From a virus, in IMG/VR virus record IMGVR_UViG_3300010299_000019, positions 1 through 37,580 of that record: DNA of 37,580 bases; one strand, written 5' to 3'. Positions 16,811 to 30,059 of this stretch are shown here, piece by piece (the stretch's first letter is position 1; every line of letters begins with the position of its first letter). Below the pieces are notes generated by a model that saw only the letters and a list, made by a program, of their open reading frames with translations, searched no databases and was not told the origin of the DNA. Position numbers and translations under genes: made by a program.

Positions 16811-16972
16811 ATGAATATAGATTTAAAAAAAGAAGAAATTGAGATTATAAAAGAGCTGGTTTCGATTGAAAGAAAACAATTAAGTTCTTTAAATTTTAGT
16901 GCAACTAAAGAAGAAGTAGATAAAATAAGAATATTAGCACCGTTAGAATTTAAACTTAAAAATTATGAATAG
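16811..16972 (+). CDS. 53-residue helical protein of unknown function
   Basis: An ATG at 16811, one base after the previous stop, opens a 53-codon frame that ends 8 bases inside the DnaA-domain gene. The protein is charged and helical (MNIDLKKEEIEIIKELVSIE, ending LEFKLKNYE). The seamless fit between two genes supports it as coding. I recognise no family. Confidence 0.6.
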   Translation: MNIDLKKEEIEIIKELVSIERKQLSSLNFSATKEEVDKIRILAPLEFKLKNYE

Positions 16973-17276
16973 AAAAATTAATTATTGGGTAGCACCTCAA
17001 TTAGAGTTTAAAAACCCAGAGGATTATGTAGCAAGAATATGCAACGAATTTGGAATAACTAGAAGTGAGATTTTAGGAAGTTCAAGGCTGCGAAATATAG
17101 CAGATGCTAGAGCAATTTTAAGTTATTTGTTGCATAAAAGATTAAAAATGACTAGTTTAGCAGTTGGAAAGTATTTAGGTAGAAACCACGCAACGGTATT
17201 ACACGCTTGTAAAAAGGTTGAAAACTTAATGCAATTTGAGAAAGGATATAGTGAATTAGTAAATAAATTTATTTAG
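16965..17276 (+). CDS. Stand-alone DnaA domain IV (DnaA-box-binding domain)
   Basis: The 103-residue protein carries the DnaA C-terminal DNA-binding fold: NPEDYVARICNEFGITRSEI (17-36), then RLRNIADARAILSYLL (41-56), and the signature GRNHATVLHACKKV (72-85) that contacts DnaA boxes. The AAA+ domain is absent. It could bind host or phage origin boxes, and so either recruit or block host DnaA. A long hairpin follows the gene. The domain call is secure; the role is inferred. Confidence 0.88.
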   Translation: MNRKINYWVAPQLEFKNPEDYVARICNEFGITRSEILGSSRLRNIADARAILSYLLHKRLKMTSLAVGKYLGRNHATVLHACKKVENLMQFEKGYSELVNKFI

Positions 17277-18174: not shown

Positions 18175-18182
18175 TATATTTG
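18175..18182 (+). promoter_or_regulatory. Putative early promoter -7 box TATATTTG
   Basis: TATATTTG fits TAnnTTTG exactly; a -33 TTTG is not clear (TTTA at 18152-18155, 19 bases away, is the nearest match). Transcription would start near 18187-18190, at the first strand of the structured RNA 18187-18324, so promoter and RNA appear to be built as a unit. Confidence 0.6.
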
Positions 18183-18186
18183 CATA

Positions 18187-18331
18187 TCTTAACAATCTAA
18201 ATACGACAAAATGCAATTAGATTTTTACATAACCCCGATACTGAAAGCGTAGGCTGTCGTATGCCTGTTAAGAACGTGAGTACGTTGAGGGGTTTCTTAA
18301 TAGTTTATGGGTATCTTAAAACCCTTATATT
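18187..18331 (+). ncRNA. Structured leader RNA with possible pseudoknot and alternative pairings
   Basis: The gap before the gene at 18332 folds extensively. Stem A is TCTTAACA (18187-18194) with TGTTAAGA (18266-18273), and stem B is ATACGACA (18201-18208) with TGTCGTAT (18255-18262); both are 8 perfect pairs. AACCCC (18231-18236), in the loop of B, is complementary to GGGGTT (18289-18294) outside, a pseudoknot. Hairpin C is AACGT-GAGT-ACGTT (18273-18286). TCTTAA recurs at 18295 and 18314 and could displace stem A. AGGC/GCCT (18251-18254 with 18263-18266) competes with stem B. It also holds a 13-codon ORF (18211-18252). This looks like a regulated leader of the replication operon; I do not recognise the class. 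Confidence 0.65.
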
Positions 18332-18553
18332 ATGGCAAATATAGATTTAACTTTTTTAGACAATTTTGGAGGTAAAATAAAAGTAGAAGTTGAAAATAAT
18401 GCACATTATGAAGAAGTGTATGTAGCAATAAGAGGTTATGATGAGCATGAGAATTCTAACTTTGCTGTTTGGTTGGACATATCAACTGCGATTAAATTCG
18501 CTAAAGCATTAAGGACTGAAATTAACAAGGCAAAGGAGATGAGCAATGGATAA
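18332..18553 (+). CDS. Small protein of unknown function
   Basis: This 73-residue alpha/beta protein begins MANIDLTFLDNFGGKIKVEV and carries AVWLDISTAIKFAKALRTEI near the end. Short proteins of this form occur next to replication genes in Bacteroidota phages. Its mRNA carries the structured leader at 18187-18331, and it overlaps the replication-initiator-like gene by 8 bases. Function is unknown. Confidence 0.65.
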   Translation: MANIDLTFLDNFGGKIKVEVENNAHYEEVYVAIRGYDEHENSNFAVWLDISTAIKFAKALRTEINKAKEMSNG

Positions 18554-19268
18554 GTTACAATGGTTTAAATTTAGTTACGCTGATTGGCGAATGGGCAAAA
18601 TACAAAGATGTTCAGAAATAACACAAGCAAGGTTTTTAAATTTATGTTGTTTGTATTGGAGTAAGGAAGCTAATTTATCTTATGAAGATGCTGAAATAGA
18701 AATTGACAAAGAGCATTTAGATGTATTATTAGCGAAAAAAATAATTGAAAGAGATGATGAACATATTTTTATAAAGTTCTTAGATGAACAGTTAGAAGAT
18801 ATTGCAGAAACCAGTAAGGGTAAGAGTAAAGCAGCTAAAATACGCTGGGAAAAGCATAGAAAACGTAAAGCAAACGAAGAGCAAAATAATGCAGATGCAA
18901 TGCACGTGCATAAAGATGCAATGCAAAACGATGCAGAGAAGAGAAGAGAAGATAAGATAAGAGAAGATAATAACATATATCACACGCAAGAAACTTTTAT
19001 TGAATGGTTTAATGATTGTCGTAAATTCTTAAAGTTACCATCTAATATTAAAAAACTTTCTACAATGGAGTCGCAAATGTTTAAAGAATTAGAATCTACT
19101 TACACAAAAGAAGAATTTAAAACAGCATTTAAAAACTTTAGTAAAGACTCTTATTATAAAAATAATAACTTACTATTCCCTAAGAACTTTCTTAAATTAG
19201 AAACATTCACTAAATATCTAAATGTAAAAGAATTAACGACTGGCGAAAAATTAGCAGGAAAATGTTAG
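18546..19268 (+). CDS. Replication-initiator-like protein containing iterons
   Basis: The N-terminal 85 residues of this 240-residue protein (KLQWFKFSYADWRMGKIQRC, then TQARFLNLCCLYW) resemble the DUF1376/DnaT-like domain of phage replication proteins. Residues 95-140 are a flexible, repetitive linker encoded by the ATGCA repeats. A C-terminal helical domain follows (FIEWFNDCRKFLKLPSNIKK). It precedes the helicase gene by a 7-base overlap, the order of lambda O-P type modules: it would bind the origin and load the helicase. The role is inferred from architecture. Confidence 0.65.
   Translation: MDKLQWFKFSYADWRMGKIQRCSEITQARFLNLCCLYWSKEANLSYEDAEIEIDKEHLDVLLAKKIIERDDEHIFIKFLDEQLEDIAETSKGKSKAAKIRWEKHRKRKANEEQNNADAMHVHKDAMQNDAEKRREDKIREDNNIYHTQETFIEWFNDCRKFLKLPSNIKKLSTMESQMFKELESTYTKEEFKTAFKNFSKDSYYKNNNLLFPKNFLKLETFTKYLNVKELTTGEKLAGKC
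18889..18935. repeat. ATGCA iterons inside the initiator gene, candidate origin
   Basis: ATGCA occurs at 18889, 18895, 18900, 18916, 18921 and 18931, with one inverted copy (TGCAT, 18907-18911). Directly after lies a purine tract of GAGAAGA/GATAAGA units to about 18970, then AT-rich DNA. Iterons beside an easily melted tract within the initiator gene is the arrangement of the lambda origin. The repeats also encode a low-complexity linker, so protein-level repetition is the competing explanation. Confidence 0.5.
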
Positions 19269-20173
19269 AAGAAAGTTTTAATATAAGCGAATACTTAAAA
19301 GATTACCATTCTGGTAAAATCTTAATGGGTAAGGGTATTGGATTACCTTTAGATGACTTTCTTAGATTTAAGCATAGCCAATTTACAATCATAAACGGTT
19401 TAGATAATGTAGGAAAAACTATTTGGATGTTATGGTATATGCTTTGCCTTTCAAGAAAACACGATTTAAAATGGTGTATTTATTCAGGAGAAAACAAAAC
19501 AGGGCAATTAGTAAGACAATTAATCCAATTCCATACAGGTAAAAGATTAGAACAATTAGAACTTAAAGAAGTATTTTTATATGAAATAGAAATAAGTAAA
19601 TGGTTTAAGTTTGTAGATAACAGCCCTTTTTATAAATTAGATGAGTTATTGGATATATTTTCAGATGGTAATTATGATGGTTGTTTAATAGACCCATTTA
19701 CAGGATTAGACAGAGGTTATACCCATTCTGATAATTATGAGTTTTTGAATAAGTCAAGACAATTTTGTAAATCAACAGGTAAAAGTTTATACGTAAATAC
19801 TCACGTAGTAAGTGAAGCAGCACGTAGAAATTATGCAGAAAATCACGAATACGCTGGTTATCCTTACCCACCAAACAAAAGCCAAAGCGAAGGTGGTCAG
19901 CCTTTTGGAAATAGAGCAGATGACTTTATAACAATACACCGACTAAATGGGCATCCTTTAATGAATTACAAAACACAAATTTATGTAAGAAAAATAAAGG
20001 ACACAGAAACAGGGGGTCAAGTTTCCCCGATAGACGACCCAATAGAATTTGATTATAACAAAGGATTAGGATTTACTTTAAACGGTCAAAACATATTAAA
20101 TCAAAGTAGTTTTAATCCATTAGATTTTAGTAAATTAACACCTAATGAGGATTTTGAAGATTCCCCATTTTAA
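19262..20173 (+). CDS. DnaB-like / RecA-fold replicative helicase, short form
   Basis: This 303-residue protein has Walker A GLDNVGKT (46-53), Walker B CLIDP (141-145) and a conserved VNTHVVSE segment (178-185). GGQPFGNRADDFITIHR is typical of the DnaB C-terminal motor. The usual DnaB N-terminal domain is missing. It probably unwinds DNA at the fork, loaded by the protein encoded just upstream. The C-terminus NEDFEDSPF resembles the acidic Pro-Phe tip of SSB proteins and may bind the same partners. Confidence 0.8.
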   Translation: MLEESFNISEYLKDYHSGKILMGKGIGLPLDDFLRFKHSQFTIINGLDNVGKTIWMLWYMLCLSRKHDLKWCIYSGENKTGQLVRQLIQFHTGKRLEQLELKEVFLYEIEISKWFKFVDNSPFYKLDELLDIFSDGNYDGCLIDPFTGLDRGYTHSDNYEFLNKSRQFCKSTGKSLYVNTHVVSEAARRNYAENHEYAGYPYPPNKSQSEGGQPFGNRADDFITIHRLNGHPLMNYKTQIYVRKIKDTETGGQVSPIDDPIEFDYNKGLGFTLNGQNILNQSSFNPLDFSKLTPNEDFEDSPF

Positions 20174-27563: not shown

Positions 27564-28276
27564 GAATAGGTATTATAACAGCAATATGGCAACGCCCTGA
27601 AGTATGGGATATGTTCAAGCGTGGTGTTATGCGCTTACGTAATCAATATGAAGATGTTGAAGTAGAAGTTTGTGTTGCTGGTTCAGAAGGACATAGAAGT
27701 CAAAACAGATGTAAAGAGAAATGGATTCATTATGTAGAAGTGCCAAACAATCCATTAGGGCGTAAAATGAATGAAGCAGCATTATTAGCTAAAAATAAAG
27801 GTTATGATTATTGTTTGTTAGTTGGTAGTGATGACATTATCTGTAATAAGTTGTTTGATTTATATTTAGATTCAGCAGAACAAGGGATAGATTACACCTA
27901 CCTAATGGATGGATATTTTTTTGACACAATGAGTAGGTTAGCTTTATATTGGGGTGGGTATAAAGACCACAGAAAAGGCGATTCATTAGGTGCTGGGCGT
28001 TTCTTATCTAATAAGTTGTTAGACAAATTAGACTGGCAGATGTGGTATGATGTTAAGTTAAGTGGAATGTTAGATAGTGCTATGGATGAAAAGATGAAGC
28101 AACTTGAATATACAGAAAAAGCAATATGGTTAAAAGAAAGTGATTGTATGTTGTTAGATATAAAAAGCAGTACTAATATGACTACATTCAATAGGTGGCA
28201 AAATAGTGATTTTATAAATGTTAGTGAAATATTAAGACATTTACCTGTTTTTGAGTTTAAAAAGATTTATGGATAA
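27560..28276 (+). CDS. Glycosyltransferase family 2-like protein
   Basis: The 238-residue protein has IGIITAIWQRPEVWDMF at the start and YDYCLLVGSDDIICNKLFDL (about 88-107), where SDD is the DxD-like nucleotide-sugar/metal site of GT-A enzymes. WGGYKDHRKGDSLGAGRFLS (about 131-150) may form the acceptor side. Its stop overlaps the acyltransferase start as ATGGATAA. Probable role: sugar transfer onto a phage or host surface glycan. Confidence 0.75.
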   Translation: MRIGIITAIWQRPEVWDMFKRGVMRLRNQYEDVEVEVCVAGSEGHRSQNRCKEKWIHYVEVPNNPLGRKMNEAALLAKNKGYDYCLLVGSDDIICNKLFDLYLDSAEQGIDYTYLMDGYFFDTMSRLALYWGGYKDHRKGDSLGAGRFLSNKLLDKLDWQMWYDVKLSGMLDSAMDEKMKQLEYTEKAIWLKESDCMLLDIKSSTNMTTFNRWQNSDFINVSEILRHLPVFEFKKIYG

Positions 28277-28871
28277 CAGAAATAATATAAGCGACTTTGC
28301 ATTTATACATCCTAACGCAATAATAGGTAAAGGAAACACTATTGAAGAAGGTGTTATTATACGTTCAAATGTAATAATAGGAGATAATAACCATATATCG
28401 CCTTATGTTACTATCGGTTTAGCTGGAGAAGTAAGAGGAGAAAACGAAATAAAAGGAAGGGTTGTAATAGGCAATAATAATGTAATAAGAGAATTTACAT
28501 CAATACAAAGCCCTCAAAGATTTGACTTCACACAAATAGGTAATAACTGTTTTATAATGGAGAAAAATCATATATCACACGATTGTATAGTTGGTAATAA
28601 TGTAACAATAGCCCCAATGGTTACTTTAGGTGGCTGTGTTAATATAGGCGATTATACTAATCTTGGAATAAACTGCTCAATACATCAACGATTAACAATA
28701 GGAGAAAGTGTAATGGTTGGTATGGGTAGTATAGTAACAAAAGACATTCCTAATTATGAAAAGTGGTTTGGAACTCCAGCACAATTTAAAGGATATAATC
28801 TTATTGGATTAAAAAGAAGATACCCAGATAAAACAGAAGAAGAATTAATTAAGTTATGTGCGGAATATTAG
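28269..28871 (+). CDS. LpxA-like hexapeptide-repeat acyltransferase
   Basis: The 200-residue left-handed beta-helix protein is the LpxA type. It has IHPNAIIGKGNTIEEGVII (13-31), HISHDCIVGNN (101-111) matching the catalytic HxxHDC of LpxA (His104), and GTPAQFKGYNLIGLKRR (168-184) matching the LpxA C-terminal element. Cellular LpxA is about 260 residues, so this is a trimmed form. LpxA acylates UDP-GlcNAc; here a sugar-nucleotide for glycan modification is likely. The ATG at 28269 overlaps the previous stop; an upstream TTG (28251) is less likely. Confidence 0.85.
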   Translation: MDNRNNISDFAFIHPNAIIGKGNTIEEGVIIRSNVIIGDNNHISPYVTIGLAGEVRGENEIKGRVVIGNNNVIREFTSIQSPQRFDFTQIGNNCFIMEKNHISHDCIVGNNVTIAPMVTLGGCVNIGDYTNLGINCSIHQRLTIGESVMVGMGSIVTKDIPNYEKWFGTPAQFKGYNLIGLKRRYPDKTEEELIKLCAEY

Positions 28872-29341
28872 CAGTCTTAGGAGATTACAGATATAAAGAT
28901 ATACCAGAAGCATTACGTGAACGTGGGCGTGATTCTGAAGGAATGTATCAAGATAACTATGTCCAACTAATGCAAACACGCCTACATATTACTGGTGGGC
29001 ATATTGATTTACCATATCAACAAGAAGAATTTGTTTTGTTGTTTAATGGCGAGATATATAATTATAGAGAATTTGCACACAACGAATACAAAGCCATTGT
29101 AGAAGCATATAAAAGTGATAGGATGAATAAATTAGATGGTCAGTATGCTATTATCATTTATAATAAAAACACACACTTAATAGACGTTTATTTAGATGAG
29201 TTAAGAATACACTCTTTATATAAAGGAGAGTACAATGGAAGCATTATATACTCATCTAATTTAAGAAGCTTACCAAAGATAGAATTTAACGAAATACAGC
29301 ATAGGGGTTATGGCAACATCACAAAGCAAGAAGTTTTATAA
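28856..29341 (+). CDS. Class II glutamine amidotransferase (AsnB N-terminal half)
   Basis: This 161-residue protein releases ammonia from glutamine. The nucleophile is Cys2 (MCGILAVLGDY), exposed after Met removal, with RGRDSEG (23-29) and LLFNGEIYNYREF (61-73) as conserved glutamine-site motifs and KLDGQYAIIIY later. It is shorter than the usual AsnB N-terminal domain. The synthetase half is encoded by the next gene, overlapping by 32 bases, so the two proteins probably act as one split asparagine-synthetase-like amidotransferase. Confidence 0.88.
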   Translation: MCGILAVLGDYRYKDIPEALRERGRDSEGMYQDNYVQLMQTRLHITGGHIDLPYQQEEFVLLFNGEIYNYREFAHNEYKAIVEAYKSDRMNKLDGQYAIIIYNKNTHLIDVYLDELRIHSLYKGEYNGSIIYSSNLRSLPKIEFNEIQHRGYGNITKQEVL

Positions 29342-30059
29342 TGATTTTCTAAAAGCAATAAATAAAAGAATTACCAATAGAGTTGTTGTACCTGTTAGTG
29401 GTGGGTTAGATTCTACATTAATTGTAAAAGCGTTAAATGATTTAGATTTAAAGTACTTTGTTAAGTATGTAACAATGTCAGAAAATGATTATGCTTTAGA
29501 AGTTGCGGATAGATACAAGATAAGGTTAGAAATATTTGAGCCTAAAATAGAACAGGGAGATTTAAGAAAGATTGTAGGAATATTAGAAGAACCGTTTTAT
29601 GCACCAAGTGTTAACTATTATCTTTATAAGAAGATTAACGAGATGGGTGGGCGTGTTTCTTTTAGTGGTTTGGGTGCTGATGAATTATTTGGTGGATATG
29701 ATTACTATAATACTGATAATTACCCACGCGGTTTATTTAAGGAGATTGAAGCAAAAACAAACAAAGAAAAAAAAGAACAAGATATACACTTCTTAACACA
29801 CCACCATTTAAGAGAAAATGAAAAGATAGGGTTATATTGGCAGGTAGAGGGGCGTTATCCATTCTTAGATAAAGAAGTTCGCAAGTATAATGACATTGGT
29901 AAGTCATTAATAAAAGAAACACTATTACAAGACTTTAACGATGGTTTTGTTAATCGTAAAAAAGAGGGTTTTAGATTAACCAATATAACAGACCGTTCTA
30001 AGCAAAGGCTACAATATTTAGAGCAATTAGCAATATTTAGAGATATATTTAAAATTTAG
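29310..30059 (+). CDS. Asparagine-synthetase-type ATP-PPase (AsnB C-terminal half)
   Basis: The 249-residue protein has the PP-loop SGGLDST (30-36), FSGLGADELFGGYDYY (118-133), EGRYPFLDKEV and NRKKEGF, all AsnB C-terminal signatures. It would adenylate a carboxylate and use ammonia from the amidotransferase made by the preceding gene. In sugar operons such enzymes amidate uronic acids or similar sugars; asparagine synthesis is the alternative. Separate genes for the two halves are unusual for AsnB. Confidence 0.88.
   Translation: MATSQSKKFYNDFLKAINKRITNRVVVPVSGGLDSTLIVKALNDLDLKYFVKYVTMSENDYALEVADRYKIRLEIFEPKIEQGDLRKIVGILEEPFYAPSVNYYLYKKINEMGGRVSFSGLGADELFGGYDYYNTDNYPRGLFKEIEAKTNKEKKEQDIHFLTHHHLRENEKIGLYWQVEGRYPFLDKEVRKYNDIGKSLIKETLLQDFNDGFVNRKKEGFRLTNITDRSKQRLQYLEQLAIFRDIFKI

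Follow-up and report, generated by a model that had tools for sequence, protein, structure and literature searches.

The question raised by this locus is whether the DNA immediately upstream of a phage replication operon encodes a structured leader RNA and, if so, what kind of control such a leader might exert. The locus lies in a viral DNA of 37,580 nucleotides (IMG/VR record IMGVR_UViG_3300010299_000019), which as a whole is called the window hereafter, and the features of the leader and of the operon are all on its plus strand. A preliminary description, made from the letters of the window, had seen two perfect 8-bp stems, a 6-bp pairing between a loop and the tail, a small hairpin and repeated TCTTAA motifs at positions 18187-18324, and had taken them for mutually exclusive pairings that resemble a riboswitch or attenuator controlling the replication operon. 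The leader is a genuine RNA element that had not been catalogued before, and its fold recurs in named phages of flavobacteria and in some 100 contigs of IMG/VR. This paper describes the element, its relatives and the mechanisms by which it may act, focusing primarily on transcription attenuation.

The Leader in the Window

The letters and positions of the preliminary description are all correct: 18187-18194/18266-18273, 18201-18208/18255-18262 and 18231-18236/18289-18294 are perfect complements, and the small hairpin, called hairpin C, and the TCTTAA copies at 18187, 18295 and 18314 are present as claimed. Its placement of a structured leader at a promoter also holds, since a Bacteroidota-type -7 box, TATATTTG, occupies 18175-18182 and the relatives share their fold about 10 nt past such a box; in most of them the motif TAnnTTTG lies 3-7 nt upstream of the first helix, P0. 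Two conserved helices, P0 and P3, had been missed. P0 is the stem of hairpin 1 and is formed by AATCTAA (18194-18200) and its perfect 7-bp complement TTAGATT (18217-18223). The loop of hairpin 1 contains the 5' strand of P1, ATACGACA (18201-18208), which is a perfect 8-bp complement of TGTCGTAT (18255-18262) in the loop of hairpin 2, and the two strands together make a kissing helix. Hairpin 2 has P2 at its base, AACCCC (18231-18236) with GGGGTT (18289-18294), and the cap stem P3, AGGC (18251-18254) with GCCT (18263-18266), which presents the 3' strand of P1, and the 3' strand of P2 runs into a U-rich, terminator-like TTTCTT (18293-18298). Hairpin C, AACGTGAGTACGTT (18273-18286), lies between P3 and P2 and is an insertion in the window copy, absent from the consensus. 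The window copy therefore has P0 of 7 bp, P1 of 8 bp, P3 of 4 bp and P2 of 6 bp with zero mismatches and in the order of the relatives, and it sits between the TATATTTG box and element B with the gene for a 73-aa protein, which matches the layout of the relatives.

Taken alone, the window stretch is unremarkable. A plain pseudoknot-free fold is not more stable than shuffles (z -0.59), a perfect 8-bp stem occurs in 15.5% of dinucleotide shuffles of 18187-18324, and two such stems occur in 0.7%; it is because the fold recurs in relatives that the leader is regarded as going beyond chance. With a descriptor of the whole architecture the window leader scores 70.1, which none of 120 whole-window shuffles, searched on both strands, reaches (maximum, 69.0). 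The covariance model R1, built from the relatives, has no match to the window leader, and the model R2 gives 14.6 bits, which is not significant. R2 came from an automatic alignment and was rejected, as the second subtype was misaligned and the window was not recovered. The window leader is thus a divergent copy, and its membership of the family rests on architecture and synteny. Such divergence is also seen against the phage L242, whose replication protein is 86% identical to that of the window over the first 130 residues, yet whose leader sequence is unrelated.

Relatives and Their Distribution

In a sensitive DNA search, matches to the end of the leader and to the following gene came from Olleya phage Harreka_1, Flavobacterium phage morran9-1 and Cellulophaga phages phi19:1 and phi10:1. 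The leaders of these phages have the same layout in different letters, with long-range pairings across about 110 nt. The 73-aa protein, used by itself as the query, gave nothing; the conserved DNA of element B, a short hairpin in front of the gene for this protein, succeeded instead, and element-B patterns gave about 58 distinct true loci, mostly from IMG/VR, which were recognised by the LDKSTAIKFAKTLRTEINKI-like end of the encoded protein. In a genome collection the element-B pattern had 33 matches, mostly in unrelated organisms, and these were rejected as chance because none encodes the 73-aa family. A second letter-based pattern, TATAATGA...AAGT...GGATTTATA, gave 42 loci, nearly all without element B, and one further letter pattern returned no loci. 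Because the patterns by which most relatives were gathered prescribe some letters, either these or GGTA and CTTAAAACC of element B, conservation of the prescribed letters is not counted as evidence. Searches of a phage database with other leaders gave nothing for one and only Cellulophaga phage phi18:3 for another.

R1 was also run on cellular genomes under strict filters. Of 301 Flavobacteriaceae one gave a match, which lies on a short contig and precedes a replication-type gene, and the 395 genomes from the class gave none. The element is nearly absent from these cellular genomes and is therefore essentially one of phages.

The genes that follow the leader are various. Copies with their own promoter lie directly before Lin1244-like, DUF6291, DEAD-type helicase and DUF6378 genes (assigned by Pfam) and before genes for ParB and other replication proteins (by-eye resemblance), and replication proteins also follow copies in the absence of the 73-aa gene. 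Furthermore, homing-endonuclease genes come after the leader in about six cases, namely GIY-YIG (L130) and NUMOD4-HNH (L081), both by Pfam, and L006, L194, L302 and L304/L305 by resemblance. L081 and L194 belong to one phage record, in which the promoters and leaders of two NUMOD4/HNH-type endonuclease genes are almost the same; it looks as if a gene and its leader had been duplicated as one cassette and travelled together. The element is a portable promoter-plus-leader module before non-homologous replication genes and homing endonucleases. The leader of the window does precede the replication operon that it was thought to control, but it is not tied to that operon, because endonucleases, helicases and other genes also follow copies.

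Architecture and Covariation

The relatives have a common layout: the TATATTTG box, about 10 nt, hairpin 1 (P0), hairpin 2 (P2 and the cap P3) and a U-rich tract. The loop of hairpin 1 and the P3-capped loop of hairpin 2 are joined by the 7-9 bp of P1, so that the hairpins kiss. The four helices were identified from a first alignment of 15 relatives, in which 94.2% of the cells are paired and both partners have changed in 20 of the 25 pairs; shuffled alignments have a covariation score of 0.210 and slid ones at most 0.163, compared with 0.602 for the real alignment. R1 contains P0, P2 and P3 only, P1 being left out, and it matches 38 of the 42 loci of the second pattern with E 2.3e-9 or better. 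In 28 further distinct relatives from these loci 99.3% of the cells are paired, 188 cells are doubly changed, compensatory changes are found in 20 of the 25 pairs, and the covariation score is 0.739 (shuffled, 0.212; slid, at most 0.156). Moreover, P1, which is outside the model, is 99.6% paired in these 28 rows with 6 of its 8 pairs compensated, and across relatives overall its pairing is 98-99.6%.

All of P0, P1, P2 and P3 covary in relatives. One of the two 8-bp stems first described (18201/18255) is P1, which is conserved by covariation as a real pseudoknot-type pairing, and the loop-to-tail pairing (18231/18289) is P2, which is kept in the same way, but the outer stem (18187-18194/18266-18273) has no counterpart of at least 6 bp in 41 non-redundant elements, so this perfect 8-bp stem is specific to the window and probably due to chance. 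The supposed competition of pairings loses its support with it. A ligand-sensing riboswitch or a two-state attenuator with mutually exclusive pairings would suit the leader position, the pseudoknot-type fold and the conservation of some unpaired positions seen in a covariation scan of the relatives. In that scan, however, the 12 column pairs that co-vary most strongly are all part of the same structure, and no conserved alternative or antiterminator helix appeared. Neither the outer stem nor any other competing pairing was found to be conserved, which leaves a two-state switch without support; in addition, no metabolic gene is controlled and no Rfam class matches, so a mechanism of this kind is very unlikely.

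Copies within one phage can have different P1 sequences, and each still pairs (L130, L111), so P1 acts within one RNA. The same difference led a trans-acting sRNA to be set aside. The internal loop between P2 and P3, which is UGAA/GGAU in other relatives and appears strand-swapped, as GGAU/UGAA, in L243-L265, could be a tandem G-A motif. Of 30 elements no more than 17 have GA in both strands, so this is a lead only.

Since most copies adjoin replication genes, they could also be supposed to act as DNA, as a replication origin, primer RNA or operator whose repeats merely resemble RNA stems. The model scores are strongly strand-asymmetric (L136, 107.7 bits sense against 23.7 antisense), the promoter is on the 5' side and the U tract on the 3' side, and copies precede homing endonucleases as well, all of which makes a DNA-level element hardly credible.

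Element B and the 73-aa Protein

Element B, AGTTTATGGGTATCTTAAAACCC (18302-18324), contains a hairpin of GGGT (18309-18312) and ACCC (18321-18324). In its 58 relatives, in which the search pattern itself dictates GGTA and CTTAAAACC, it is a hairpin NGGU/ACCN' in which the pair next to GGT/ACC is C-G (22), A-U (18), U-A (4), G-C (1) or G-U (1); this outer pair is Watson-Crick in 45 of 58 (46 with G-U) and unpaired in 12, of which 11 are U/U. L272 has a compensated stem, CCGU/ACGG. The distance from element B to the ATG is usually 9 nt in relatives and is 7 nt in the window. True matches of element B are found only before the 73-aa gene family, and in Harreka_1 a small gene displaces element B from the leader. 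In L237, L242, L267 and L271 another hairpin (for example, UGUUU...AAACA or CAGUUU...AAACUG) replaces element B, and the same kind of small protein follows.

The 73-aa protein (18332-18553, phrog_33177) is encoded by the first gene of the replication operon and is conserved in dozens of phages, its C-terminal helix strongly so. AlphaFold2 predicts four strands and a helix with a mean pLDDT of 86.6, and the best Foldseek matches are Pur-alpha (3k44, TMq 0.73) and the PC4 homologue of T5 (4bg7, 0.62), with E-values above 0.05; it is accordingly predicted to be a nucleic-acid-binding protein with a PUR/PC4-like fold. It is followed by a replication-initiator-like protein (18546-19268, phrog_29280), whose counterpart at the same place in Harreka_1 is annotated as 'replication protein', and by a primase/helicase-type protein (19262-20173, phrog_18375, E 1.4e-22). 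Elsewhere in the window a free-standing DnaA domain IV (16965-17276, Bac_DnaA_C, E 4.1e-18) hints at the use of DnaA boxes, and proteins annotated as 'DnaA protein' are present also in phi19:1, Harreka_1 and phi18:3. An asparagine-synthase-like protein is split over two overlapping genes at 28856-30059, one with the glutamine amidotransferase part and the other with the Asn_synthase part, and a hexapeptide-repeat transferase gene (28251-28871) adjoins them.

The gp32 protein of T4 is an autogenous translational repressor that acts on a pseudoknot leader (PMC535899, PMC3014915). With this precedent, the leader could be a translational operator on whose fold a single-strand-binding protein of the phage nucleates before it coats the unstructured stretch over the start codon. 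As in the T4 gene 32 system, a 5' leader with a pseudoknot stands before the gene of a putative binding protein in the window, whose first gene encodes the predicted PUR/PC4-like protein and has element B 7 nt from its ATG. Unlike the T4 leader, which serves one gene, the leader here has two kissing hairpins and many unrelated genes, including endonuclease genes, downstream, and 13 of 14 non-control leader-bearing phage records (possibly fragments) have no match to the 73-aa protein, the 14th match being weak. Because most carriers are without it, the 73-aa protein is not a general partner of the kissing leader, and an operator of the gene 32 kind, which fits element B at most, is improbable for the kissing element. 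For element B itself the link is plausible: in the window and about 58 relatives the PUR/PC4-like protein may bind element B and thereby limit its own translation, which would make element B a putative autoregulatory translational operator.

Transcription Attenuation as the Likeliest Mechanism

In the relatives a U tract follows the second hairpin, and for this reason attenuation is favoured; the attenuator half of the first suggestion, unlike the riboswitch half, agrees with the mechanism favoured here. In most copies P2 has 10-14 bp, and in 41 elements the T share is 59-78% at positions +1 to +7 after P2, a richness that is partly selected since the descriptor by which they were collected itself requires T after P2. 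Beyond +7 the T share falls and A rises. The promoter comes first, then the terminator-like hairpin and then the start codon, and between them no second promoter was seen. In the window the U tract is weaker than in relatives and interrupted (TTTCTT), and a simple terminator scan found nothing there; the hairpin has a large loop.

We consider transcription attenuation to be the likeliest mechanism and give it an even chance of being right. The leader of about 100 nt would be transcribed from its own promoter and fold co-transcriptionally, hairpin 1 (P0) forming first and its loop then pairing with the emerging loop of hairpin 2 to make P1. Closed by P3 and P2 and ending in the U tract, hairpin 2 would have the shape of an intrinsic terminator immediately ahead of the gene. 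Some transcripts would stop at the U tract and others would read through into the gene. Since P1 can form before P2 closes, the kissing helix is positioned to influence termination, and it may set the fraction of read-through or let a factor alter that fraction. The same module would be reused before non-homologous replication genes and homing-endonuclease genes.

The main rival to the attenuator is a leader that stabilises the message and enhances translation without termination, the kissing fold shielding the message from decay and the unstructured A/U-rich stretch after P2 serving as a landing zone for ribosomes in hosts that rarely use Shine-Dalgarno pairing. Such a leader would agree with the start of the fold about 10 nt past the promoter box and its end before the A/U-rich stretch and the ATG, and with the use of one fold by unrelated genes. 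However, a T-rich block of about 7 nt followed by A-rich sequence is the pattern of a terminator and not general A/U richness, and a plain stabiliser would need no loop-loop helix of 7-9 bp kept by covariation. We therefore hold it to be a serious but distinctly less probable explanation.

The put RNA of HK022 has two hairpins at the 5' end of early phage transcripts, and the present leader resembles it in its two hairpins at the 5' end of the transcript, adjoining the promoter of replication operons. A cis-acting antitermination RNA of this kind would modify RNA polymerase near the promoter so that later terminators are ignored. The leader itself, however, ends in a terminator-like U tract, and, unlike put, copies of it also precede single mobile genes such as those of endonucleases; to our knowledge, put RNA has neither a kissing helix nor a terminal U tract. 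Antitermination of the put type is thus a slight possibility.

Comparison with Known Systems and Novelty

Loop-loop pairing is linked to the control of replication genes in ColE1 RNAI/RNAII and in the pT181 attenuator, the latter acting via a terminator. In these kissing RNAs of plasmid copy control a sense molecule pairs with an antisense molecule, whereas both loops are in the same RNA here. Purine riboswitches are leader attenuators that likewise combine kissing loops with a terminator-like hairpin, but the present element has no stem enclosing both hairpins, no conserved alternative helix and no metabolic genes. In type III toxin-antitoxin leaders (ToxI) a promoter, a pseudoknotted RNA, a terminator-like hairpin and the gene come in that order, as they do here; unlike ToxI, the leader has no tandem repeats and is followed by replication proteins and endonucleases and not by a ToxN-like toxin. 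A type III antitoxin was set aside since the genes downstream are not toxins.

The preliminary description recognised no known class, and indeed no family of Rfam 15 matches the window at the gathering score, a lax Rfam search of the window leader gave only a 13-bit antisense match due to chance, and an Rfam search of nine relatives gave no match at the leader. In the literature searches no paper describing such a leader came up. The kind of element, a structured regulatory leader, is known; what seems to be new is its architecture and its occurrence before genes that are unrelated to each other. It is possible, at somewhat less than an even chance, that the element represents a new class of RNA in phages, a portable attenuator made of a promoter and kissing hairpins and common to flavobacterial phages that are not related to one another. 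On this view it would be exchanged between replication modules that are not homologous and would travel with homing endonucleases, and the pairing of two loops within one RNA would adjust termination just ahead of the gene.

Little is known about the timing of genes in phages of Flavobacteriia. That one strongly covarying fold recurs ahead of replication genes unrelated to each other, and ahead of mobile endonucleases, points to a common principle of control, and the recurrent leader is a handle for testing gene control in these phages. It suggests, too, that a free-standing endonuclease gene brings a ready-made promoter and leader along when it moves, a point relevant to the regulation of such genes within the carrier.
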